Assembly: GCF_001458295.1 (NCBI RefSeq)
Contig: NZ_CYUD01000005.1
Location: 1 to 64,000 of the forward strand
Direction: 5' to 3'
Source: Ruegeria denitrificans
GTDB taxonomy: Bacteria; Pseudomonadota; Alphaproteobacteria; Rhodobacterales; Rhodobacteraceae
Length of the DNA stretch: 64,000 bases
Below, piece after piece: positions 18,148-29,118 of this stretch. The translations under genes were made by a program, and so were the position numbers. The notes under the pieces are model-generated. The model saw only the letters and a list, made by a program, of their open reading frames with translations. It did not search any database and was not told where the DNA came from. Each line of letters starts with the position of its first letter. The stretch's first letter is position 1.

Positions 18148-18819
18148 TCAAAACCCAGTCGAAAGATTTTCGAAGGGACTTTTTTTGTACGATACCGTGC
18201 GGCAAACAAGAACATTGTTGAACTCTGGATCCACTTTTGGAAAGGGAAGTTTTCTTAACGCTCCAGCGGACAGAAATTCAGCATCGTAAGAGCTGCGCGT
18301 CAATGCGATTCCCATTCCCGAGATTGCAGCGCGAAGCGTAGGATCTGCATTGCTGAACACTGGTCCGTGCCGCAATGCGCTGGATGGATAGCTGATCTTT
18401 TTCAGATAACGATCCCAGGTATCCGCGGTCTCGGCATGCGGCATAACGGGATTCTAAATCTGAGAGAAGTTGCAGGTCTGCTCCAGTTCATTTTGTTCGA
18501 CAGAGAATAAGGAAGGGCTGCAAACTGCAATTTGGCGATCCGAAAACATCGGGATGACCTTGAGGCCAGGCCCTGGTTGGGCGTTGGCATGGCTGTCGGG
18601 GCGCACCGCAAGATCGGAAAGTCCAGGTTGAATTTTGCGGTAGAACCGATGTCCTGCGTCGGTGATGTTGATCCCTCGCCTTGTGCGGGTGAATAGCTGA
18701 CCGCTAAGCAGCGCTTCAAGTTTACCGACGCGATAGCTGACTGTTGGTTGGGTCAATCCAAGCTCTGTCGCTGCTTTGGAGAATGAACGCAGCCGGCAAA
18801 CTCCTTGGAAAAATCGCAT
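18148..18819 (-). pseudogene. Broken LysR-family regulator (GcvA-like)
   Basis: The frame begins RFFQGVCRLRSFSKAATELG with LTQPTVSYRVGKLEALLSGQ, a clear LysR HTH, and reaches the wing FTRTRRGINITDAG. Most of the effector domain is then missing. A fragment KVIPMFSDRQIAVCSPSLF follows, then an in-frame TAG at 18454, and the C-terminal part DTWDRYLKKISYPSSALRHG to ALRKLPFPKV. About 200 codons remain against about 300 normally. Its 5' end overlaps the 5' end of the divergent binding-protein relic, so the intergenic promoter has also been lost by deletion. Confidence 0.8.
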
Positions 18820-19592
18820 CAGTATCAATCCTGTCTGCGAGGCTTGCTGCTGCGGCAATTGCCGGTGAAACCCTGGATCGGATCGAAGGCACAATAGTGC
18901 TCAAGGTTGCCACCAACTCGGACTGGGCAGTGCAGGCCTTCCTGAACGATCAAAACGAAATGGATGGGTTCGACGTTGATGTGGCGTTCGAGTAGCCAAA
19001 CGCCTTGGGGCCGAGACCGAGTTCGTGACGCCCGGTTGGGAAGCGATGACCGCTGGGCGCTGGAATATTGTCGTTGGATCGATGACGCCCACGGCAAAAC
19101 GCGCCGAAGCCCTGGAATTTCCGGCAGTCTACTACTACACGCCGGCCGCATTTGCCGTTCACGAAGATTTCGATGGTGCAATTATTTCTGACCTGAAAGA
19201 AAAGGTAATCGGTGTGACTCCTTCGTCGACCTATCACTTGTAATTGCAACATGACCTCAAGATCGACGCCGCGGGCGTGCCGGAATTCGACTATCAGGTC
19301 CAACCGGCTGAGATCAAAACTATGGCACTGGTATGAGTGAGTTTGATGACCTTCGCCTGGGTAACGGCGTGCGCCTTGATGCGGTGCTGCAATCGTTGCC
19401 CACAATCCTGTCTGCAGTTGAAAACGGTCTGCCAGTCCGCCAGCTGGGCGAGCCGGTCTTTTTCGAACTGCTGTCGGTTGCAGTCGGCAAGGGGGGTACT
19501 GACTTTGTCGGAAAGGTCGCTGACATCGTGACAAAATGCGCAAAGACGGAACCCTGCGCGAGCTGTCGATGAAGTGGCATGGCGTCGACTAA
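18783..19592 (+). pseudogene. Broken amino-acid ABC transporter substrate-binding protein
   Basis: Successive frames encode one family-3 binding protein. First come a signal-like LLGKIASVSILSARLAAAA and VLKVATNSDWAVQAFLNDQ. A one-base loss near 18993 shifts the frame to VAKRLGAETEFVTPGWEAMT and VVGSMTPTAKRAEALEFPAV. A TAA lies at 19241-19243, before LQHDLKIDAAGVPEFDYQVQ. There is another one-base loss near 19325 before MSEFDDLRLGNGVRLDAVLQ, and a third shift near 19537 before MRKDGTLRELSMKWHGVD and stop. At least three frameshifts and one nonsense codon show long-term loss of function. Confidence 0.85.
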
Positions 19593-19648
19593 ACGTCGGC
19601 AAACTGATCTTCATACCCTGAAAGGACAAACCGGAAATCCTCTCGAGC

Positions 19649-20557
19649 TTGACCGCCTACCCCACAGTTAAACGCTCACGCCGGTTCAATGCCGAATGTT
19701 CGCTGATTGCTGGCAAGGTGGTTTTCCTGATCGGATATTGGGCGGGCTTTTCCGGGGAAACATTCCTGCGCTTTTTCTATGCACCCGAGGCAGGTGAACT
19801 GGCCTCGGGGGTATCGGAAAGGGTATCGGCGACGCTGGTTCTAGCGCTGATCGTGACCTTAAACCTGTTCCTGCTTTTGGCTGCCGACCGTAGGTTCAGC
19901 GCATCCTCGTATGGGCCGAACTTTTGCGCCTGTTCCTGTTCACCACAGGTATCGTGACAACCTTGTACGTGTCGTTGGCATCTATTGTGATCGCGTTCGG
20001 GCTTGCTCTGCTTGGGTCAGTTTCCAAACTTTCCGGTAATGGGATCGCAATGGGCGCGGTCGATTTTTTCACCTCATTTTTCGGGGTGTGCCGCTGTTGG
20101 CGCAGCTTTTTCTGATCATCTGGGCTTGCCGCAGATAGGCCTGATCGTCGACCCGATCCCAGCGGGGCTTGCTGCGCTCAGCCTGCGTTATGGCGGTTAC
20201 ATGACTGAAATCTACCGGGCCGGCATCCGAAGCATCGATCCCGGTCAATGGGAAGCATCGGCAGCCTTGGGTTTGAAAAAAGGCGTAGCGTTTCGCAAAG
20301 TGATCATGCCGCAGGCGTTCAAGATCATTATCCCTCCGACGGGCAACAGCTTTATTGCGATGTTGAAAGACAGCTCACTGGTTTCGGTCGTTGGCGTCTG
20401 GGACCTGATGTATGTCGCCCGCTCCGCTGTCCGCAGCAAATTCCGAATTCTCGAAATGCTGATCACCGCAGCACTGATCTATTGGGCTTTGTCTTTCCTG
20501 CTGGAACTGGGGCAGGCCCCGCTAGAAGAACGCTTTCGCCGCTCTGCCGCCAACTAG
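19649..20557 (+). pseudogene. Broken amino-acid ABC transporter permease (HisM-like)
   Basis: The relic begins TAYPTVKRSRRF. A frameshift near 19920 moves it to LRLFLFTTGIVTTLYVSLAS, and one or two more near 20090-20125 move it to LPQIGLIVDPIPAGLAALSL. After that the frame is open to the end. The intact part carries the permease EAA loop (SIDPGQWEASAALGLKKGVA, FRKVIMPQAFKIIIPP) and the usual end EERFRRSAAN. The order binding protein then permease fits one decayed importer operon; no ATPase gene remains beside it. Confidence 0.82.
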
Positions 20558-20605
20558 AACCGAATGCTGAATTGCCAAAACATCTCTGACAAAGGACCAA
20601 GCCGC

Positions 20606-21541
20606 ATGTGCACAATCGGTGCGATAAATTTGGACGATGGCAACTATTATCTGTTCAAGAACAAAGATTTCGGGTTGTTAAACTTTGATGAACATCTGAT
20701 TTCCGATCCATCAATGTTCGGGGTATCCGGTGTGGAAAACTTTGCCGCAACCGATGACAGCGAAGCGGTGTTCTCGGGGCTGTCAATCGGCGCCAACGAA
20801 CATGGGCTGTTATGTTGTAACGCGCATGTCAGCTTCACACCTGCGAACGGTCGCAACTATGACATTCTGGTCGAGATCGCCTAGCGGCAGGGCCACGACG
20901 TCCAGTCGGCCATTTCTGCGATCAGGATGCATCTGGCAGACAACCCGACCTGGGTTGGCAGCCTGATTATGGTAGACGGTAAGACAGTTGCCTGTATCGA
21001 AGCGCGCGGACATGAAATCCGGGTTCAGGAGGCATCTTATTTTCTGGTCAAAAGCAACCATCAGGTGATGTTTGAATCCGATAACGACCCGGCTTCGTCA
21101 AACAGTCAAAGCTGCCTTACATCGGCGCGCAACAGGATGGCCAGCGTTGGTGAGCTTGACGATATTTTGACTGTCCTGTGCTCTCATGATGATGGTGATA
21201 CCGGCGTGTGCAACCATTTGAAGGGGCGCAGAACTGTTTATTCATATGTTCTGAACTTTCTCGGGGACAAAATCTCGTTGCATGTATCCAAGGAACTGCC
21301 GTGCAGGGCCGAGCATTTTCGGAAATTGGACCTGCCGCTTGCGGAGATGTGGAACGCGGAAGATTTAAGCAACTCGACGCGTCGTATCCGAGATAGCGGG
21401 ATAAAAGCTCGGGAACTGTCAATCACAAACAGGATCTTGCCTGTTCAAACAATTTGCGAGGTTAGTCGCTTCTGCACTGAAACCTCCTGCCCAGTTTCCC
21501 CCGGCATGGGAGTAATGCGATCAAACACATGGATGACCTGA
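20606..21541 (+). pseudogene. Interrupted Ntn-hydrolase (C45-type acyltransferase/hydrolase-like)
   Basis: The frame starts MCTIGAINLDDGNYYLFKNK, with Cys in second position followed by a Gly-Ala-Ile-Asn block. This resembles the autocatalytic N-terminal-nucleophile start of C45/acyl-CoA:6-APA-acyltransferase-like enzymes. GLSIGANEHGLLCCNAHVS and later WVGSLIMVDGKTVACIEARG also fit. A single in-frame TAG at 20882-20884 stops it after 92 residues. Without that codon the frame is open to 21541, although homology in the last 60 codons is unclear. It follows the decayed importer closely and may have worked on what that importer brought in. The family call is moderate. Confidence 0.65.
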
Positions 21542-21663: not shown

Positions 21664-22869
21664 ATGCCCGATGGATCGCAGAAGCAATATGTGCTGGACA
21701 CGCATCGGCTACGCGACCCCGAGCAAACCCTACAAATCGTCAAACCGTTTCTAAAGGGCATGGGCATCACCCGGGTTGCAAACCTGACCGGCCTTGACCG
21801 GATCGGTCTGCCCACGGTGATGGTGGCGCGACCCAACTCCCGGTCAGTCGCGGTGTCATTGGGCAAAGGGTTGTCGCTGCGTGCGGCCGAGGCCTCGGGC
21901 GTGATGGAGGCAATTGAATCCTGGCACGCTGAACGGGTGCAATTACCGCAGCGGTTGGCCAGATATGCTGAACTGACGCAAGAAGCGACGGTGGTCGACG
22001 TGACCGGATTACCTCGCGTGACGGGTGGGCGGTTTGATCCTCATTCTAACATGCTGTGGGTTCTGGGGCGTGATCTGGGCGCCAATCGCGCGTGCTGGGT
22101 TCCGCTTGAGATGGTCGATACAGACTATACCAGCGCTCCGGTCGGGGGTCAGGCCGCCTTTCCGCGCACCACCAACGGATTGGCGTCGGGTAACAACGTG
22201 GTTGAGGCCAGCTGTCACGCCATTTGCGAATTGATCGAACGGGATGCCACAACGCTGTGGCACCATCGCGCGGGCACCCCCCGCCTTGATCCGAATAGTG
22301 TGGATGACCCACGCTGCCGACAGGCCATCGAGATGATAACCGCAGCCGGGTTAGAGATAGGGCTGTGGAACACAACGTCGGACATTGGCATCGCCAGTTT
22401 CCGCTGTGTGGTTTGCGAAGGCGGCGGCCAACCCGGCCATATTGGTATCGGCGATGGCTGTCATCCGGACCGCGCGATTGCCCTGCTGCGGTCTTTGACC
22501 GAAGCAGCGCAGACACGGCTGACTTATATCTCAGGTGCTCGGGATGACCTGGATCCCGAAGAATTCACCGATCAGGCGAAAATGGATCGGGGCCGCTATG
22601 TGCGTGATCTGATCGACGATGCGGCGGCGGATCAAAGTTTTGGCGACTGCCCGTCATTTGTAACCGCATCCTTTGAAGAAGATCTGGAATTATTGTTGCA
22701 ACGGCTTGCCGCCGTGGGCATCCCGCAAGTGGTTACCGTTGACCTGTCGCGCCCTGAATTGGACATCGCCGTGATCCGGGCCGTGATCCCCGGGCTGGAG
22801 GCACCGCATGACGAACCGGATTACATACCCGGTCCGCGCGCTCGACGCATAGTGGAAGGGCTGGCATGA
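21664..22869 (+). CDS. YcaO-domain protein (TfuA-associated type)
   Basis: ATP-dependent enzyme that activates backbone amides of peptides; YcaO proteins paired with TfuA form thioamides, while others form azolines or amidines. The sequence shows MGITRVANLTGLDRIGLPTV, RPNSRSVAVSLGKGLSLRAA, the ATP/Mg region SGVMEAIESWHAE, NGLASGNNVVEASCHAICEL followed by IERDATTLWH, and SLTEAAQTRLTYISGARDD. I start at the ATG at 21664 (401 residues), as the family homology begins just after it; the frame opens at a TTG at 21607. The stop overlaps the TfuA start by 4 bases, so the two are coupled. It is intact, unlike the genes just upstream. Confidence 0.88.
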   Translation: MPDGSQKQYVLDTHRLRDPEQTLQIVKPFLKGMGITRVANLTGLDRIGLPTVMVARPNSRSVAVSLGKGLSLRAAEASGVMEAIESWHAERVQLPQRLARYAELTQEATVVDVTGLPRVTGGRFDPHSNMLWVLGRDLGANRACWVPLEMVDTDYTSAPVGGQAAFPRTTNGLASGNNVVEASCHAICELIERDATTLWHHRAGTPRLDPNSVDDPRCRQAIEMITAAGLEIGLWNTTSDIGIASFRCVVCEGGGQPGHIGIGDGCHPDRAIALLRSLTEAAQTRLTYISGARDDLDPEEFTDQAKMDRGRYVRDLIDDAAADQSFGDCPSFVTASFEEDLELLLQRLAAVGIPQVVTVDLSRPELDIAVIRAVIPGLEAPHDEPDYIPGPRARRIVEGLA

Positions 22870-24176
22870 CGGCAGTTGTATTTGTGGGCCCGACCCTGAC
22901 GCTCGAGACAGTTACCAAACATCTGGATGCAACCATCCTGCCGCCAGTCCGACAAGGAGATGTCTATCGTGTCGCCCGTACAAACACGTCAGCAATCGGC
23001 ATCATAGACGGATTTTTCGAAGGGGTGCCCTCGGTCTGGCACAAGGAAATCCTCTGGGCGATGGAGCAAGGGATTCCGGTCTTTGGCAGTGCCAGCATGG
23101 GCGCTTTGCGCGCGGCTGAATTGGCTGATTTCGGAATGATTGGGGTTGGCCAGATCTTTCAGGATTACTACAACGATGTCCTGCAGGATGACGATGAAGT
23201 TGCTGTATTGCACAGCCCCGCCGAGCTTGGGTTCAAGCCTCTCAGCGAGCCGATGGTGTCGATCCGCGCGACCGTGGCGCAAGCGCAGACCGCAGGCGTA
23301 CTGCCGGCGGACACCGCGTCCAAAATACTGCAAATCACCAAGGCCATGCATTACCGCAAGCGTATCTGGGCAGACATAATTTCTGCGATGCGGGATTTGC
23401 CTGGTATCTCTGAGTTTTCCGACTGGTTACCGACAGGCCGCATCGACGCCAAGGCAGATGATGCCCGCGCCATGCTGACCCGCATGTCCGAGCATCTGGC
23501 CGGAGCCGTTCAGCCAAAGTCCGAAGCCACGCGCACCGAACCAACCCTGATGTGGAAAGCTCTGTGTGCCCGGGTCGATGCCGGAGAGCTAACCACCGAC
23601 CGCGCAGTCGTCGACGAGCTGCGGCTGGACCCTGCGCTCTACGCGCAATTGAAACATCGCGCCGCTCTTGCGTTGCTGGCGCGCGAGGATGCCTCAAGAC
23701 GGGATCGTAAACCTGAGCGTGCGGACTTGATCCGGCAGATGGACGATCACAGGGCAACAACAGGTCTTTCGCGACGATCCGAATTGATGGATTGGATCGA
23801 GGCAAACGATTTGAACGCGGATAGCTATGAAACAATGTTGGCCGACGCTGCCCGGATTGATGCTGCCATTGCATCGCGCGCCGGTTCTTTGGAAGCGCAA
23901 CTGTTGTCAGAGCTGCGCCGTGCGGACCAATATACCGAGCTGCGGGACAGGGCAGACAGAAAAGCACATCGTGCCATTCCGGCGGGTTCCTCCGGGGTGG
24001 ATCGGTTGCGCGTGCTGATGTGGTATTTTGAATCTCGTCTTGACCAAGAGGTGCCTGATGATCTTGACTCTTACGCAGTTGCGCTTGGTCTGGACGGGCG
24101 CGACGCGTTTTATGAACTGATAGAAGCTGAATTTTTATATTGCCATAGAGGTGCCGACGCCGGAGCCGCAGAATAA
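22866..24176 (+). CDS. TfuA-like protein with a long C-terminal extension
   Basis: Partner of the YcaO enzyme. Residues about 1-165 are the TfuA core: AVVFVGPTL, GIIDGFFEGVPSVWHKEILW, then MEQGIPVFGSASMGALRAAE and GVGQIFQDYYNDVLQDDDEV. In thioviridamide-type and archaeal systems TfuA assists YcaO in thioamide formation, probably at the sulfur-donor step. The remaining 270 residues are alpha-helical and rich in Ala, Arg, Asp and Glu, with repeated acidic-basic heptad-like runs. I recognise no domain there. Most TfuA proteins of stand-alone type are nearer 200-250 residues, so the extension may hold a substrate-recognition or partner domain, but this is inference. Confidence 0.85.
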   Translation: MTAVVFVGPTLTLETVTKHLDATILPPVRQGDVYRVARTNTSAIGIIDGFFEGVPSVWHKEILWAMEQGIPVFGSASMGALRAAELADFGMIGVGQIFQDYYNDVLQDDDEVAVLHSPAELGFKPLSEPMVSIRATVAQAQTAGVLPADTASKILQITKAMHYRKRIWADIISAMRDLPGISEFSDWLPTGRIDAKADDARAMLTRMSEHLAGAVQPKSEATRTEPTLMWKALCARVDAGELTTDRAVVDELRLDPALYAQLKHRAALALLAREDASRRDRKPERADLIRQMDDHRATTGLSRRSELMDWIEANDLNADSYETMLADAARIDAAIASRAGSLEAQLLSELRRADQYTELRDRADRKAHRAIPAGSSGVDRLRVLMWYFESRLDQEVPDDLDSYAVALGLDGRDAFYELIEAEFLYCHRGADAGAAE

Positions 24177-24219
24177 CAGGCCGACGGATTTGACCGGGCA
24201 CGACACGGGAGGGCGTATT

Positions 24220-25515
24220 ATGAACTACCCCGAACAGATCAAAGACGAAGAACCCGGCACCCGGTTCTTGCTGTACCCGCAGTCGCCCTTTCTGGAACCT
24301 GATGCCCCGCTGGAACTGGTCGAAATCTCTGCCCCGCAAGGCAGCGTCGGCCCGGGTCCGTCGGGGCCGCGCATGTACACAGTGAACCCGGTCGGGAAAA
24401 CCACCCCATACGGCGCGATTGTGCCTGGGCCGAACGGGCCGGGCATGTATCTGCCCCCGTGGAATGGTTATATCCAACCCCCTGCCATGCCTGATGCGCT
24501 TGGCAATTTCATCCATATCGACCCAACCGACCCGGCCTTTGAAGCCGCGCATCTGTATGGCTCGGCCCATTTCACCATGGATGTCTGGCAGGGATATTTC
24601 GATCGTCCGATCCCGTGGCATTTCTCCCGCGATTTCGACCGGCTGGAGCTATCGTTGCTGCCCAGCCTGGACAACGCTCATATCGGTTGGGGATTTCTGG
24701 AAACCGGCGGTACGCATGAACATGGGGATGAATACCGTCCTTACAGTTTGAATTTCGACGTCGTCGCGCATGAGATTGGCCATGCCATCATCTATAGCGT
24801 GATCGGCATGCCCTCTGATGGGGATGCCTCGGGCGAATATTACGGGTTTCATGAATCCGCCGCCGACCTTGTGGCCTTGCTGGCGTCACTGCATTTCGGT
24901 TCGGTGGTGGACACGTTGCTCGAAAACACGCGGGGTAATCTCTATACGTTCAACCGCCTCAGCCGCTTTGCCGAACTGTCGGAAAACGCACAAATCCGGA
25001 TTGCTGCCAACGACCGGTCCTTGTCGGAATTCGCCGCTGGCTGGTCCAGCGAACACGCCCTGTCTGAACCTCTGACCGGTGCGATGTTCGACGTTTTCGT
25101 CGATATCTATCACGAACGGTTGCTGCTACATGGCCTGATCTCTGCCGAAGAGGAAGAGCTTTCGGACCAGCTGGAAGGCACCCCCGAATACAGCCAAGTG
25201 ATGCAGGATATCTTTGACAAGCGATATGCCGAAAACCCTGAAGGTTTCCGCATCGCGCTGCTTGAAGCACGCGACTATCTGGGCACCTATCTGGCCGACG
25301 CGTGGGAGAGGCTGGACGCGGATATGCTCAGCTATTTTGGGGTGGAAAAGGCTCTGCTGGCCGTCGATCAAGAGATTACCGGTGGTGCCTTCCGCCGTAT
25401 TATCGAGGGCAATTTCCGTATGCGCGATATTGGCCTGACAACCGCCGGCCCCCGTCTGCCAGACCCGGAAGAAGACAGCCATTCACATTCAGTTCGAACG
25501 CAAGTGCCGGATTAG
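24220..25515 (+). CDS. HEIGH zinc metallopeptidase-like protein
   Basis: 431-residue protein with a gluzincin-like active site: HEIGHAIIYSV near residue 184 gives the two His zinc ligands and the catalytic Glu, and GFHESAADLVALL 22 residues on supplies a third Glu ligand, as in thermolysin- and fungalysin-type enzymes. There is no signal peptide. The N-terminal 90 residues are Pro/Gly rich with a near-duplicated segment (GPGPSGPRMY and VPGPNGPGMY). I start at the ATG at 24220, preceded by GGGAGGG; an ATG at 24151 within tfuA has no such site. Placed 43 bases after tfuA, it may process the product of the YcaO/TfuA pair. A hairpin terminator follows. Confidence 0.7.
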   Translation: MNYPEQIKDEEPGTRFLLYPQSPFLEPDAPLELVEISAPQGSVGPGPSGPRMYTVNPVGKTTPYGAIVPGPNGPGMYLPPWNGYIQPPAMPDALGNFIHIDPTDPAFEAAHLYGSAHFTMDVWQGYFDRPIPWHFSRDFDRLELSLLPSLDNAHIGWGFLETGGTHEHGDEYRPYSLNFDVVAHEIGHAIIYSVIGMPSDGDASGEYYGFHESAADLVALLASLHFGSVVDTLLENTRGNLYTFNRLSRFAELSENAQIRIAANDRSLSEFAAGWSSEHALSEPLTGAMFDVFVDIYHERLLLHGLISAEEEELSDQLEGTPEYSQVMQDIFDKRYAENPEGFRIALLEARDYLGTYLADAWERLDADMLSYFGVEKALLAVDQEITGGAFRRIIEGNFRMRDIGLTTAGPRLPDPEEDSHSHSVRTQVPD

Positions 25516-25585
25516 CGCCTAAAATCCTTTATTTTTACAAGGTTTTATGGCATGCAATCATGGGGTGATTTTTGGAACGTATTTG

Positions 25586-25612
25586 CTCGAATTATTTATT
25601 CGAGTTCTTTTA
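25586..25612 (+). terminator. Intrinsic terminator after the metallopeptidase gene
   Basis: CTCGAAT (25586-25592) pairs with ATTCGAG (25598-25604) around TATTT, followed by TTCTTTT. It separates the ycaO-tfuA-peptidase operon from the VSGAR-repeat gene, which therefore probably has its own promoter or depends on readthrough. Confidence 0.7.
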
Positions 25613-25666
25613 AGGGGGGAGATGAGGGTCCTGACTCCGTCGATCCCATAGTTGGGAGGAAATGAG

Positions 25667-26551
25667 ATGTCTGAATCCTTGCTCAGTTTTTCAGAAGTGT
25701 TGTTGTTTGGTCGTGCAGTTGATGATCTTAAACTTAAGAAGGACACGCGTGTTCGTGTGGCAATCATCGACGAAAGCTTGACGGCAAAACCAGATATCAC
25801 CAGTGGAATAATTGATGACGTGACCGTTGAAGTCGGGGACAAAGTGCTTGTTCAGATTGGCGACGACGATATTTCAGGAGTTTACAAGGTCAAGAAAACA
25901 GGCGCCAATCTTGTATTGGAAGACCGCAAAGACGAAGCAAAAGGTGACTTCGTTTTTGTAAAGAAAGGGTCAAAGCACAAACGTACGTTTTGGAAGCAAA
26001 CACTTAAACCGGAAGGCACTCCGCCGAAACAGAAATTCGAATACAAAGGCAAACGTCGTCGTGGAAAAGGTGTAAACAATTTCCTTGGCGACCAGTTTCT
26101 GGATGGAGGCAAGCTGGCCAGAATCTATGGGTTCGCCTATGAGGGCGTGTATTACGAATTGCCGGAGCCGGTTATCTTCCTTGTGCACGGGGATGGCGAG
26201 TTCGTTAACAAATCGGATGGCAAAGATAATGCTCCGGGTGGGCTTGCATCCCGCGCGCCGAACAATCCCGACCTCACAGGTATTGCTTCAGCTGACTTCC
26301 AGTTCGCGGATGACATCCGGGTGTGGGATTACAACAAAGCCGATTTCACCATCCGCATGGACGTTATGACCGGTCAGTTTGAACAGGTTCTGCTGGACCT
26401 TTATTTCGGCTTTGACAGCCCGGCTGTCAGCGGCGCCCGCGTCAGCGGAGCCCGAGTGAGTGGTGCGCGGGTCAGTGGTGCCAGAGTTAGCGGAGCACGT
26501 GTTAGCGGAGCCAGAGTCAGTGGAGCAAGGGCACGGGGCTCGGACGACTGA
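25667..26551 (+). CDS. VSGAR-repeat-tailed protein of unknown function
   Basis: 294-residue protein that I do not recognise as a whole. Residues about 17-110 (VRVAIIDESL, VGDKVLVQIGDDDISGVYKV, GDFVFVKKGSKHKRTFW) loosely resemble the beta-rich module seen in phage tail and surface proteins, where a GDRVLV-(x)n-NGIYVV pattern is common. A basic patch KGKRRRGKGVNN follows, then a middle region with IYGFAYEGVYYELPEPVIF and DFTIRMDVMTGQFEQVLLD. The C-terminus is seven perfect VSGAR units and ARGSDD. There is no signal peptide and no Cys. I start at 25667, which has GGGAGG 8 bases upstream. Position after ycaO-tfuA-peptidase makes it a candidate substrate of that set. Confidence 0.65.
   Translation: MSESLLSFSEVLLFGRAVDDLKLKKDTRVRVAIIDESLTAKPDITSGIIDDVTVEVGDKVLVQIGDDDISGVYKVKKTGANLVLEDRKDEAKGDFVFVKKGSKHKRTFWKQTLKPEGTPPKQKFEYKGKRRRGKGVNNFLGDQFLDGGKLARIYGFAYEGVYYELPEPVIFLVHGDGEFVNKSDGKDNAPGGLASRAPNNPDLTGIASADFQFADDIRVWDYNKADFTIRMDVMTGQFEQVLLDLYFGFDSPAVSGARVSGARVSGARVSGARVSGARVSGARVSGARARGSDD
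26426..26530 (+). repeat. Seven tandem 15-bp units, each encoding VSGAR
   Basis: Every unit encodes Val-Ser-Gly-Ala-Arg without a single substitution, yet the DNA differs between units. The Arg codons in order are CGC, CGA, CGG, AGA, CGT, AGA and AGG, so all six arginine codons occur in seven units. Val, Gly, Ala and Ser codons vary too. This means the peptide is conserved while the DNA has drifted or been selected to differ. Confidence 0.95.
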
Positions 26552-26583: not shown

Positions 26584-26612
26584 AGGCCCTGCTCAGCAGG
26601 GCCTTTCTTTTT
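26584..26612 (+). terminator. Strong intrinsic terminator after the VSGAR gene
   Basis: AGGCCCTGC (26584-26592) pairs perfectly with GCAGGGCCT (26596-26604) around TCA, followed by TTCTTTTT. It also lies at the end of the convergent adenylate cyclase gene. Confidence 0.85.
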
Positions 26613-28387
26613 CAGAAACCTGCCTTTTTCAGGCCCTCAACAAAGTGTTGTGTGTCTTCTTCCAGCTTGTCCGGCTGAACGGTTTCCCACCGAGCTAGTG
26701 AAAAGTTCGGATGTGCTGCGCGATGCTTGTCTGCAATCTGACGGGCAATGTCGGTTTGGCCAAGCTGTGCATAGCTTGCCGCCAACAGACGCTGCCCTTC
26801 CGTGGGATTGTTCATCTTGTTGACGGCACCGATGGCGTCTTGATAGCGGTGGAGGTTGAAATACGCCCCACCCAAATGCCACAGATACTGGTCCGGAAAA
26901 TAAGGATTCAACCGCATCGCCTGTTGAAGATGTGTGATTGCCATTTCGTTGTCGCCGTAATGAGCCAGCGCATCCGCGTAGTCTGAATGCATATCTGCAT
27001 CATTCGGGTTCAACGCCAAAGCTCGTTTGTAGGACTGCAACGCAGCATCATGTTCTTTGCGGTACAGGTGTACATAACCCAACTCACCAAATCCACGCGC
27101 ATCGGTCGGGTCCAGTTCAATCGCGCGTCGCGCGAAGGTCAGCGCCTGATCCAGCGCTTTTGTGGGATCTTCGGACCAGGAATAGCGCCAGTTGATATTC
27201 AGCGTCCGCGACAGGGCGGCGGCAGCGCGGGCATAGCCTCCATCCCGATCAAGCGCGTTCTGATAATAGTTTTGCGCCTTCTGGTTGTCGTTCCTGGTAT
27301 ATTTGAAGATGTGATGCTGGCCTTGCAGTACGGATCCATAGGCCTCTAGGTCGGACGGGGCCGATTGTATCATCCGACGCTTTTCATGCGACTCGATCAT
27401 CACTGCGGTTGCCGCCACGATGCACTCTGTCACCTCATCGAGAATATCGAAAATATCGTCGATCTTGCGATCGAAACGCTCACCCCAGATGGTGCGCTCG
27501 GTGGTGGCATCAACCAGTTCCGCTGTTATCCGGATACGGCTGGCTGAACGACGTACACTGCCGCGCGCGATATAGCGCACATTCAGTTTTTGCGCCGCTT
27601 CCTTCGGAGGCATACCCTGTGCCTTGAAGAAAAAGGACGAGTTCCGCGCGATCACGAACAGATTGCGGAACTTGGACAGGTTCATGATGATGTCATCGGT
27701 CAGCCCTTCGGCAATCCAGCTGTCGGATTCATCCCCGCTCTGGCTGCTGAAAGGCAGAATGGCCACTGAAGGCGAGTCGGGACGCTCGAGGATATTACCC
27801 GGCATGTCCGGCCGCATCGTTCCGGCCATGGTAGCACCTGCAACCTCACTGCGGACGCAATAGGTCGCGATGGGTGAAAGGATGTTCTTCAGCTGCTTTG
27901 GCCCGAGAAATTCATAGCCATAACGCAGCCGATTACAGACCTGATCGTAAACGGCGGAACTGACGTAAACCCTTTCAGGTTCAGCAATTTCCTGAAGCCG
28001 CGCCGCTATATTGACATTGTCGCCGTGTATACCGCGATCGTCGATTAGAATTTCGCCCAGATGGACACCCGCGCGAAAATTGATTCGTTGATTTTCTGCG
28101 CGATCCTGGTTGTGTTGGCTGGCGATGCGATGCAGTTCAACCCCGAACTCCACTGCGCTGGTGGCGGTTTCGAACAGGGCCAGAATACCATCGCCGCGCA
28201 CCTCGACCACCCGGCCCTGAAAGCGCGCGCAGGTTTCCTCAAGTTGGTAAATCAATGATTTCAACGCGTTGTAGGTGTCCAGCTCATTCTCGCTCATCAG
28301 ACGAGAATATCCGACAACGTCGGCAAACAAGACGACACCCAGCTTCTGCGTTATGGAAGAGTTTGGACTTGTGGTGTTCACATTCAT
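26612..28387 (-). CDS. Class III adenylate cyclase with TPR region
   Basis: Predicted to make cAMP from ATP. Residues 15-185 are a class III cyclase domain: VVLFADVVGYSRLMSENE holds the first metal Asp, VRGDGILALFE the second, and HGDNVNIAARLQEIAEP the Asn/Arg pair used in catalysis. Residues about 205-330 resemble the TolB/FlgO-like middle domain of this group (SVAILPFSSQSGDESDSWIA, GLTDDIIMNLSKFRNLFVIA), and residues 330-590 hold tetratricopeptide units (ARGFGELGYVHLYRKEHDAA, YADALAHYGDNEMAITHLQQ). The architecture is common in rhizobia and roseobacters. No membrane segment is visible. It is alone on its strand with the GNAT gene upstream. Confidence 0.88.
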   Translation of the reverse strand: MNVNTTSPNSSITQKLGVVLFADVVGYSRLMSENELDTYNALKSLIYQLEETCARFQGRVVEVRGDGILALFETATSAVEFGVELHRIASQHNQDRAENQRINFRAGVHLGEILIDDRGIHGDNVNIAARLQEIAEPERVYVSSAVYDQVCNRLRYGYEFLGPKQLKNILSPIATYCVRSEVAGATMAGTMRPDMPGNILERPDSPSVAILPFSSQSGDESDSWIAEGLTDDIIMNLSKFRNLFVIARNSSFFFKAQGMPPKEAAQKLNVRYIARGSVRRSASRIRITAELVDATTERTIWGERFDRKIDDIFDILDEVTECIVAATAVMIESHEKRRMIQSAPSDLEAYGSVLQGQHHIFKYTRNDNQKAQNYYQNALDRDGGYARAAAALSRTLNINWRYSWSEDPTKALDQALTFARRAIELDPTDARGFGELGYVHLYRKEHDAALQSYKRALALNPNDADMHSDYADALAHYGDNEMAITHLQQAMRLNPYFPDQYLWHLGGAYFNLHRYQDAIGAVNKMNNPTEGQRLLAASYAQLGQTDIARQIADKHRAAHPNFSLARWETVQPDKLEEDTQHFVEGLKKAGF

Positions 28388-28473: not shown

Positions 28474-29118
28474 TTAGTCACACTTATCAACCTGTGGTGG
28501 CCAAGACCAGCTTGGGCAGCCTTTTGACCCAAAAGTTACAATAGTTTCAGGGCTTACCTCTTTCGCAAGGATCAGCCTTCTATTCACCCAATCCTGGCTT
28601 AGAAGGCCCACCACGATCATATCGCGAAAGGTCCCGTCAGCGAACCAGGCTTGCCGCATGGTTCCTTCGACCTGACAGCCCAGTCGTTCCACAAGATCGC
28701 GACTGATATGATTGTCCTGTCTGTAATACGAAGTGAGCCGGTTCAGACCAAGCTGACGGAAGGCGAAATCCGCAAGCAGCGCTGTTGCCCTGATCGCAAG
28801 ACCCAAACGGCGCGCTGATTTTTCAACAAACATGGCGATGACCGCATCCCGGTTGACCAGAGAAATTGCTTCGAGCCCGACAATTCCCATAGCCTGTCCA
28901 CTGTCGGATTCAACGACGAACCAGCAGCTCCCATTTTTGCCCGAAGGACTAAAATTTTCGCGCCAAATTTCTTCGGTCTGAATAAGGTTGAGCGGAATTC
29001 GCGACGTCCGATCAAATCGGCTAAGGTCCTCGATATCCTGAAACCAGGGTGTGATGACCTCCAGATCTGCTTTTTCCAGTGGACGTAACGTGAATACGCT
29101 GTTGGATTTGTCTGGCAA
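28474..29118 (-). CDS. GNAT-family N-acetyltransferase (RimJ/RimL-like)
   Basis: 214-residue acetyltransferase of the RimJ/RimL group that moves an acetyl group from acetyl-CoA to an amine, often a protein N-terminus or a small amine. The fold blocks are visible: FTLRPLEKADLEVITPWFQD at the start, GIVGLEAISLVNRDAVIAMF, the CoA loop region SARRLGLAIRATALLADFAF (a degenerate RRxGxA), and NRLTSYYRQDNHISRDLVER with LGCQVEGTMRQAWFADG. Its C-terminus has about 25 extra residues rich in Pro and Trp. The substrate cannot be told. It lies upstream of the adenylate cyclase on the same strand, with 86 bases between them. Confidence 0.8.
   Translation of the reverse strand: MPDKSNSVFTLRPLEKADLEVITPWFQDIEDLSRFDRTSRIPLNLIQTEEIWRENFSPSGKNGSCWFVVESDSGQAMGIVGLEAISLVNRDAVIAMFVEKSARRLGLAIRATALLADFAFRQLGLNRLTSYYRQDNHISRDLVERLGCQVEGTMRQAWFADGTFRDMIVVGLLSQDWVNRRLILAKEVSPETIVTFGSKGCPSWSWPPQVDKCD

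Follow-up and report, generated by a model that had tools for sequence, protein, structure and literature searches.

What does the ycaO-tfuA locus of Ruegeria denitrificans make, and which of the genes around it share in that task? The locus lies in a 64,000-nucleotide stretch (the window; contig NZ_CYUD01000005.1, positions 1 to 64,000) of a genome of 4.62 Mb in 42 contigs. It comprises coupled ycaO and tfuA genes, a zinc metallopeptidase gene and a gene for a 294-residue protein that carries seven tandem VSGAR units near its C-terminus, with a convergent nucleotide cyclase gene and an N-acetyltransferase gene beyond. We consider it probable that this is a multi-core system for a ribosomally synthesized and post-translationally modified peptide (RiPP), in which YcaO and TfuA would thioamidate a precursor and the peptidase would release its cores, with N-acetylation as a possible further step and a link to signalling by cyclic nucleotides. 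The features are as follows.

21664..22869, + strand: ycaO, putative backbone thioamidating enzyme, 401 aa (Pfam YcaO, E 2.8e-79)
22866..24176, + strand: tfuA, putative sulfur-delivery partner, 436 aa, with a long C-terminal extension (Pfam TfuA, E 8.4e-47)
24220..25515, + strand: zinc metallopeptidase with a thermolysin-like predicted fold, 431 aa (conserved HEIGH/HESAAD region; AlphaFold2 model)
25585..25605, + strand: candidate weak terminator in the gap between peptidase and precursor genes (8-pair stem, 3 GC, T run)
25667..26551, + strand: repeat protein, putative precursor, 294 aa (482 homologues at E<=0.001; alignment A1)
26426..26530, + strand: seven tandem VSGAR units, putative cores (direct repeat, period 15 nt)
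26584..26604, unstranded: strong hairpin terminator in the convergent gap between precursor and cyclase genes (9 pairs, 7 GC, T-rich tail)
26612..28387, - strand: class III nucleotide cyclase with TPR repeats, 591 aa (Guanylate_cyc, E 5.5e-13; TPR)
28474..29118, - strand: GNAT-type N-acetyltransferase, 214 aa (Acetyltransf_3, E 4.9e-19)

The initial annotation of this DNA had described coupled ycaO and tfuA genes, a HEIGH metallopeptidase 43 bases further on, and a 294-residue protein with its own ribosome site and seven VSGAR units. These elements were borne out: both enzymes match their Pfam families and their reading frames share four bases, the peptidase begins with an ATG at 24220, 43 bases past the end of tfuA, with HEIGH at 24769-24783, and a GGAGG ribosome site (25655-25659) precedes the repeat gene. 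It had also called two terminators. The final one (26584-26604) looks strong, with seven of nine pairs GC; the one ahead of the repeat gene is present but ordinary (25585-25605, three of eight GC), being not above chance for a region in which seven terminator-like sites were seen against 5.7 expected from shuffles. The locus as first drawn stopped short, since the convergent cyclase and the GNAT gene are also part of the conserved locus.

Gene order, co-occurrence and exchangeable cores

The repeat tail had been read at the outset as a multi-site substrate of YcaO and TfuA, with the suggestion that the peptidase and the repeat protein be checked for co-occurrence. The search for these genes covered 54 genomes from the genus: 34 had the repeat protein, 34 had the peptidase and 39 had TfuA. 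The repeat-protein and peptidase genomes were the identical set of 34, each with a close TfuA match adjoining the peptidase, and none of the remaining 20 had this peptidase; the genomes are related and hence are not independent observations, so that a Fisher value computed from them does not stand for a probability. As to the repeat protein occurring without YcaO/TfuA, which had been named as a sign against the proposal, 34 of 34 repeat-protein genomes in the genus have the close TfuA match, and outside the genus one genome (G697) is a contrary case. Five extra TfuA genomes (G036, G037, G041, G049 and G053) gave remote or partial TfuA matches and have neither this peptidase nor the repeat protein; G017 gave a second, remote TfuA match.

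When named genomes were scanned with the alignment of the peptidase, 80 of 153 loci were kept. Records with the cassette include Ruegeria, Roseovarius, Leisingera, Roseobacter, Roseibium, Hoeflea, Nitratireductor and several metagenome-assembled genomes. The full order of ycaO, tfuA, peptidase and repeat protein was found in 75 of the 80 loci (74 with separate genes, plus L089 with a fusion). TfuA adjoins ycaO in 79 of 80 and is fused to it in L089, the record of L064 beginning inside tfuA, and the precursor gene follows the peptidase in 76. This gene order, with the co-occurrence in the genus, supports the view that the precursor and the modifying enzymes form one system and that the tail would be a multi-site substrate. 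The constancy of the peptidase across the 80 loci is not itself evidence, because the loci were found through it.

No precursor gene adjoins the peptidase in L054, L057, L060 and L061. The contig of L061 stops 99 bases past the peptidase, and the only match in that genome was weak and confined to the tail. In L054, L057 and L060, which belong to the Leisingera group, a precursor (L206-L208) and its convergent cyclase lie about 19.5 kb away on the same contig; the near-equal distances suggest one inherited rearrangement, by inversion or transposition. Clustering of the neighbouring open reading frames (ORFs) of at least 110 aa in the 80 loci gave six families present in 52 to 72 loci each, the next family being present in 17. 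Another small peptide gene beside the enzyme pair, also named beforehand as a sign against the proposal, was not among these six shared families, genes shorter than 110 aa not having been clustered.

Three loci stood out in this set. In L089, the fusion of ycaO and tfuA forms one 949-residue frame (L089:1155-4001). Two precursor-like ORFs overlap in different frames at L037:9431-10494, by duplication or frameshift. L067, from a record titled Gammaproteobacteria, holds the cassette with VRGAS units, by mis-binning or horizontal transfer.

The repeat protein itself has 482 homologues at E<=0.001, and nearly all of the 120 matches listed keep the repeat tail. Its parts are a leader (about residues 1-253), a putative core (254-288) and a short acidic end; 109 of the 117 gathered precursor ORFs (duplicates included) end in D or E, and of the eight that do not, L064 is truncated where its contig stops. 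Leader homologues share conserved segments (alignment A1), some homologues of about 190 residues being without the middle domain, and the precursor ORFs span about 165 to 330 residues from stop to stop. The AlphaFold2 (AF2) model reached a predicted local distance difference test score (pLDDT) above 90 at about residues 31-130 and fell to 32-37 in the tail (250-294), where no strands were predicted. Structural comparison returned no confident match for the leader fold.

The seven units of the window are identical in amino acids, yet they use the same codons in only 0.295 of 105 between-unit pairs. This low codon identity, together with the tails of the listed homologues, places the VSGAR repeat beyond chance. 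Over 5915 codon pairs, codon identity between identical units was 0.367, compared with an expectation of 0.342 derived from the remainder of each gene, and recent DNA duplication of the units was rejected because the match lies so little above that expectation. Units that are near-identical as protein with codons near chance, an unusual combination, indicate protein-level constraint and selection to make a single product in many copies. The units are old as DNA and uniform as protein, as expected for a multi-copy peptide precursor; recombination between tails could contribute.

The cores differ between relatives. Within the 80 loci the units are mainly VSGAK or VSGAR, with VSGSR, VSGSK and VRGAS in some. 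Position 5 in 75 V-x-G-type tails was purely K or purely R in 69, only S in three and mixed in three. A quick tree of the peptidases, in which 23 of 72 inner branches stayed open, required at least seven K/R changes, and five among Ruegeria-like rows; exchange of tails by recombination could be an alternative source of these switches.

Beyond these loci, the analysis took in 34 additional genomes in which the peptidase match was strong (39 minus five whose contigs equal named loci in length: L198, L199, L202, L214 and L216); genomes with weak peptidase matches, among them L151 and L152, were left out. Both ycaO and tfuA lie upstream in 30 of them, the exceptions being L203, L143, L133 and L192, the last two on short contigs. 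Tandem cores occur in 14 of the 34: VSGAR or VSGAK (L150, L197, L200, L201, L215), MNARG (L193, L196), ANARG (L194), RAVMAS (L144), RAMMQS (L195), YSGGKA (L205 and the G803 precursor), GRSSG (L203) and MNVG (L143). The A1 leader profile also matched the precursors with MNARG, ANARG, YSGGKA, GRSSG and MNVG units. Cores at the same gene position are exchangeable. The concern raised in the initial annotation, that the VSGAR units may only be a flexible linker, loses weight given that units at this position differ in sequence and in length (four, five or six residues). In L148 and L149, a second small protein (start about MPC..INVTE) follows the precursor and may be another substrate or a partner.

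Proposed modification and release of the repeat units

YcaO aligns to positions 2-325 of the 325 in its Pfam profile, and TfuA covers nearly all 119 positions of the TfuA profile. The nearest NCBIfam model to YcaO is the McrA-glycine thioamidation YcaO (E 9.2e-67), and both proteins score below the equivalog cut-offs of the McrA-type models (225.6 versus 365 bits for YcaO, 200.3 versus 235.2 bits for TfuA). When compared with the sequences of solved structures, YcaO was nearest to MJ1094 (E 4e-36) and TfuA to the TfuA of 6xp8 (E 5.9e-30); matches of YcaO to TruD, LynD and MusD, which we take to be azoline enzymes, were at E 2.7e-18 or weaker. TfuA assists YcaO in thioamide formation, as far as the accessible parts of two reports describe it (PMC6511847; PMC13063428), and knowledge of the family makes a thioamide the probable modification here.

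We considered that the genes could act in the following manner. The 294-residue protein would be the precursor, with a large leader, seven identical VSGAR cores and a short acidic end. YcaO and TfuA would alter the backbone of each unit, most likely by converting an amide to a thioamide. The thermolysin-fold peptidase would then separate the units by cutting, on the analogy of thermolysin, before a hydrophobic residue, which is Val in the window and in many relatives is Met or Tyr, and release would yield pentapeptides such as VSGAR. The GNAT protein may acetylate the newly formed N-terminus, and through the cyclase either the product or its precursor would be coupled to signalling by cyclic nucleotides.

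For the release step, the peptidase has the HEXXH motif and downstream glutamate of the M4 family (HEIGH, and HESAAD at 24850-24867), and H184, E185, H188, E212 and D216 are invariant in alignment A2 of 24 diverse homologues. Its AF2 model (pLDDT 83.5) had thermolysin as its best Foldseek match (E 4.3e-7); five thermolysin rows among ranks 1-7 gave template-modelling (TM) scores of 0.41-0.46 on the model length and 0.53-0.61 on the thermolysin length. The 26 structure matches at E<=0.001 include thermolysin and M36 proteases, and, judged by their titles, all 26 are M4 or M36 enzymes. The window peptidase shares with these enzymes the HEXXH motif, the downstream glutamate and the predicted fold, and differs in scoring below the Pfam M4 cut-off (14.2 versus 22.4 bits, with no Pfam family at cut-off) and in having no signal peptide by visual inspection, so that it is perhaps cytosolic. 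Thermolysin prefers a hydrophobic residue after the cut; Val, Met or Tyr is present in 10 of the 12 named unit types, GRSSG and ANARG being the exceptions.

Several observations weigh against this mechanism. The GRSSG and ANARG units have no large hydrophobic residue, which counts against a thermolysin-like cut there. The leader is unusually large for a RiPP, no exporter was widely conserved in the neighbour clustering of the 80 loci, and no RiPP recognition element (RRE) domain was found in the Pfam scan of YcaO or TfuA at E<=1, no dedicated RRE search having been run. In L089, a leader-like protein 1.7 kb downstream is repeat-free. Precursor-like ORFs without tandem repeats were found in 19 of the 34 further genomes, so repeats are not essential; one of these, in L145, ends SPTMYASRMMMGHRGGRLGDS, those of L148 and L149 were assigned by position and by eye, and the contig of L133 ends before the precursor. 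The RAVMAS precursor (L144) had no match to the A1 leader profile at E 0.01, and the RAMMQS precursor (L195) was recognised via L144; as their leaders are not clearly related to A1, what links them to the others is gene position. Finally, genome G697 (L203; 88% complete) has the cyclase, the peptidase and a GRSSG precursor, with YcaO/TfuA not found in the genome, and L143 has TfuA, the peptidase and an MNVG precursor, with ycaO not found within the 16 kb read.

The tail might alternatively stay attached, with YcaO and TfuA thioamidating the repeat protein in place; the modified tail would then bind metal, nucleic acid or a partner, and the peptidase would only trim or recycle. YcaO enzymes that modify proteins are known for McrA (PMC5589413) and uL16 (PMC13063428), as set out in the accessible parts of those papers, the McrA-type models are the nearest to the window YcaO and TfuA, most unit types hold one basic residue, and the lack of a widely conserved exporter among the clustered families fits a protein that is not released. 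The change of unit sequence and length from clade to clade at the same gene position nevertheless fits a product better, the MNVG units have no basic residue, and the peptidase tracks the repeat protein exactly within the genus. On balance we regard retention of the tail as rather unlikely.

Another possibility, to which we give little credence, is that YcaO installs a different backbone change on the repeats, an amidine or an azoline, instead of a thioamide. Chemistry is diverse across YcaO enzymes, the role of TfuA in this cassette family is putative, and the Ser of VSGAR could become an azoline. Against an azoline, the MNARG (L193, L196) and ANARG (L194) units contain no Ser, Thr or Cys and adjoin ycaO and tfuA; azoline is therefore not the shared chemistry, and it was set aside as the general one. 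MJ1094 is also the closest solved sequence, with TruD, LynD and MusD far behind, and no seventh gene (a dehydrogenase, for example) is common to more than 17 of the 80 loci.

The cyclase, the acetyltransferase and a possible role in signalling

The cyclase link is the most interesting part of the locus and the least understood. Flanking sequence of 1 kb or more was available for 71 loci, and in 67 of these the cyclase and precursor genes are convergent (the copy in L049 is a fragment), with a median gap of 62 bases and a gap of at most 200 in 62 of the 67. It was not found in L034, L070, L081 and L085, also when these were searched with the other cyclase type. That type, of about 1000 residues, stands at the head of the operon in many of the further genomes, and its AAA_16 domain was confirmed in both that were tested (L144 and L149). 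Altogether, a cyclase is present in 30 of the 34 further genomes (exceptions L143, L215, L133 and L192). GNAT is present in 65 of the 71 flanked loci. Lysine is an unlikely target for it, because GNAT is also found in loci with VSGAR units alone.

The linkage of a cyclase in 67 of 71 named loci and 30 of 34 further genomes, and as two types, leads us to suggest, tentatively and with more doubt than belief, a second-messenger circuit based on thioamidated peptides: one precursor would yield a protease-resistant thioamidated pentapeptide in many copies, and a dedicated cyclase would sense the peptide or the precursor and raise the level of a cyclic nucleotide. The pairing of precursor and cyclase in the Leisingera group is weak evidence for signalling, since one rearrangement is likely to account for all three cases. 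If the suggestion is true, this would be a RiPP family defined by signalling and not by antibiosis; the linked cyclase in any case raises a testable question on peptide-controlled cyclic-nucleotide signalling.

A conflict or defence cassette, with the cyclase as sensor-effector and the peptide as internal trigger or toxin, appeared very unlikely. The cyclase domain gave weak PADLOC matches to PycC (E 3.5e-10), the distant upstream cyclase with its AAA_16 domain gave a very weak match to Avs2 (E 9.6e-4), and presence in the genus is patchy (34 of 54 genomes). The PADLOC matches were confined to the cyclases, and at E<=0.01 there was none for ycaO, tfuA, the peptidase, the precursor or GNAT, no search aimed at a Pycsar effector having been made.

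Most improbable of all is that the tail forms a short, structural pentapeptide-repeat beta helix (A-x-V-x-G register) while YcaO and TfuA act elsewhere: residues 256-287 match Pfam Pentapeptide weakly (E 0.017; 15.1 bits, under the cut-off of 20.2), public records label some homologues pentapeptide repeat-containing, and the phmmer matches include PDB chains with the names beta1 variants and NP275 (best E 4.1e-6), presumably repeat-five-residue beta solenoids, but the tail is modelled as disordered at low confidence and strand-free, and relatives with four- and six-residue units could not form the same helix, on which grounds it was set aside.

Described relatives and neighbouring sequence

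The nearest described case to the proposed RiPP system is thiovarsolin (varA-varY-varT, Streptomyces varsoviensis; PMC6511847), which shares YcaO, TfuA and a repeating-core precursor, the likeness being one of description. According to the accessible text of that report, the product is a short, thioamidated, N-acetylated peptide, the repeat number varies between species, and, no specific protease being reported in the cluster, endogenous peptidases and an endogenous acetyltransferase are invoked. The thiovarsolin core is APR, whereas the cores here are V-x-G-x-K/R and others, with no APR repeat in the tails read. Unlike thiovarsolin, the cassette has a linked peptidase, usually GNAT, and a cyclase; by analogy, GNAT may fill the role of the endogenous acetyltransferase. 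As to varO, varL, varS and varP of the thiovarsolin family, clustering of neighbours in the 80 loci gave no more than the six widespread families, no search aimed at these four proteins having been made.

The YcaO-TfuA pair of archaeal methyl-coenzyme M reductase supplies the nearest curated models and the nearest solved sequence (MJ1094), with the window proteins below the equivalog cut-offs. Its substrate is a housekeeping enzyme, whereas that of the cassette is apparently a dedicated precursor. Many proteobacterial TfuA clusters were reported by Malit et al. 2021 (PMC8120280), with Ruegeria mentioned; the Ruegeria precursors given in the accessible text are Nif11-like with a GG motif, unlike the repeat protein of the window. 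Its main text does not contain the words repeat or Rhodobacter, and its accessible text describes neither this precursor nor the cyclase. As stated there, all YcaO-TfuA products known as of 2021 came from Actinobacteria, although TfuA clusters are common in proteobacteria (PMC8120280). A literature search by title, with subscription papers mostly outside its coverage, returned no paper about this precursor or about a RiPP with a linked cyclase. The repeat proteins are a candidate dedicated precursor family in marine and plant-associated Alphaproteobacteria, with cores that can be read from sequence and masses that can be predicted; our guess is that the family was overlooked owing to its long precursor ORF. 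The calculated [M+H]+ of VSGAR is 489.278 for the plain peptide, 505.255 after one thioamide and 547.266 when an acetyl group is present as well; the corresponding values for VSGAK are 461.272, 477.249 and 519.260. A thioamide would shift a unit by +15.977 and an azoline by -18.011, and thioamides are expected to absorb near 270 nm (PMC6511847).

Immediately 5' of ycaO (20564-21541, + strand), two ORFs in the same frame are split by one TAG at 20882. Similarity of the first ORF to the AAT acyltransferase family is very weak, and the pair resembles a broken gene. Further upstream (18400-20557), numerous short overlapping ORFs lie beside an ABC transporter permease (20003-20557, Pfam E 4.9e-20), and this region is perhaps a decayed transporter operon.

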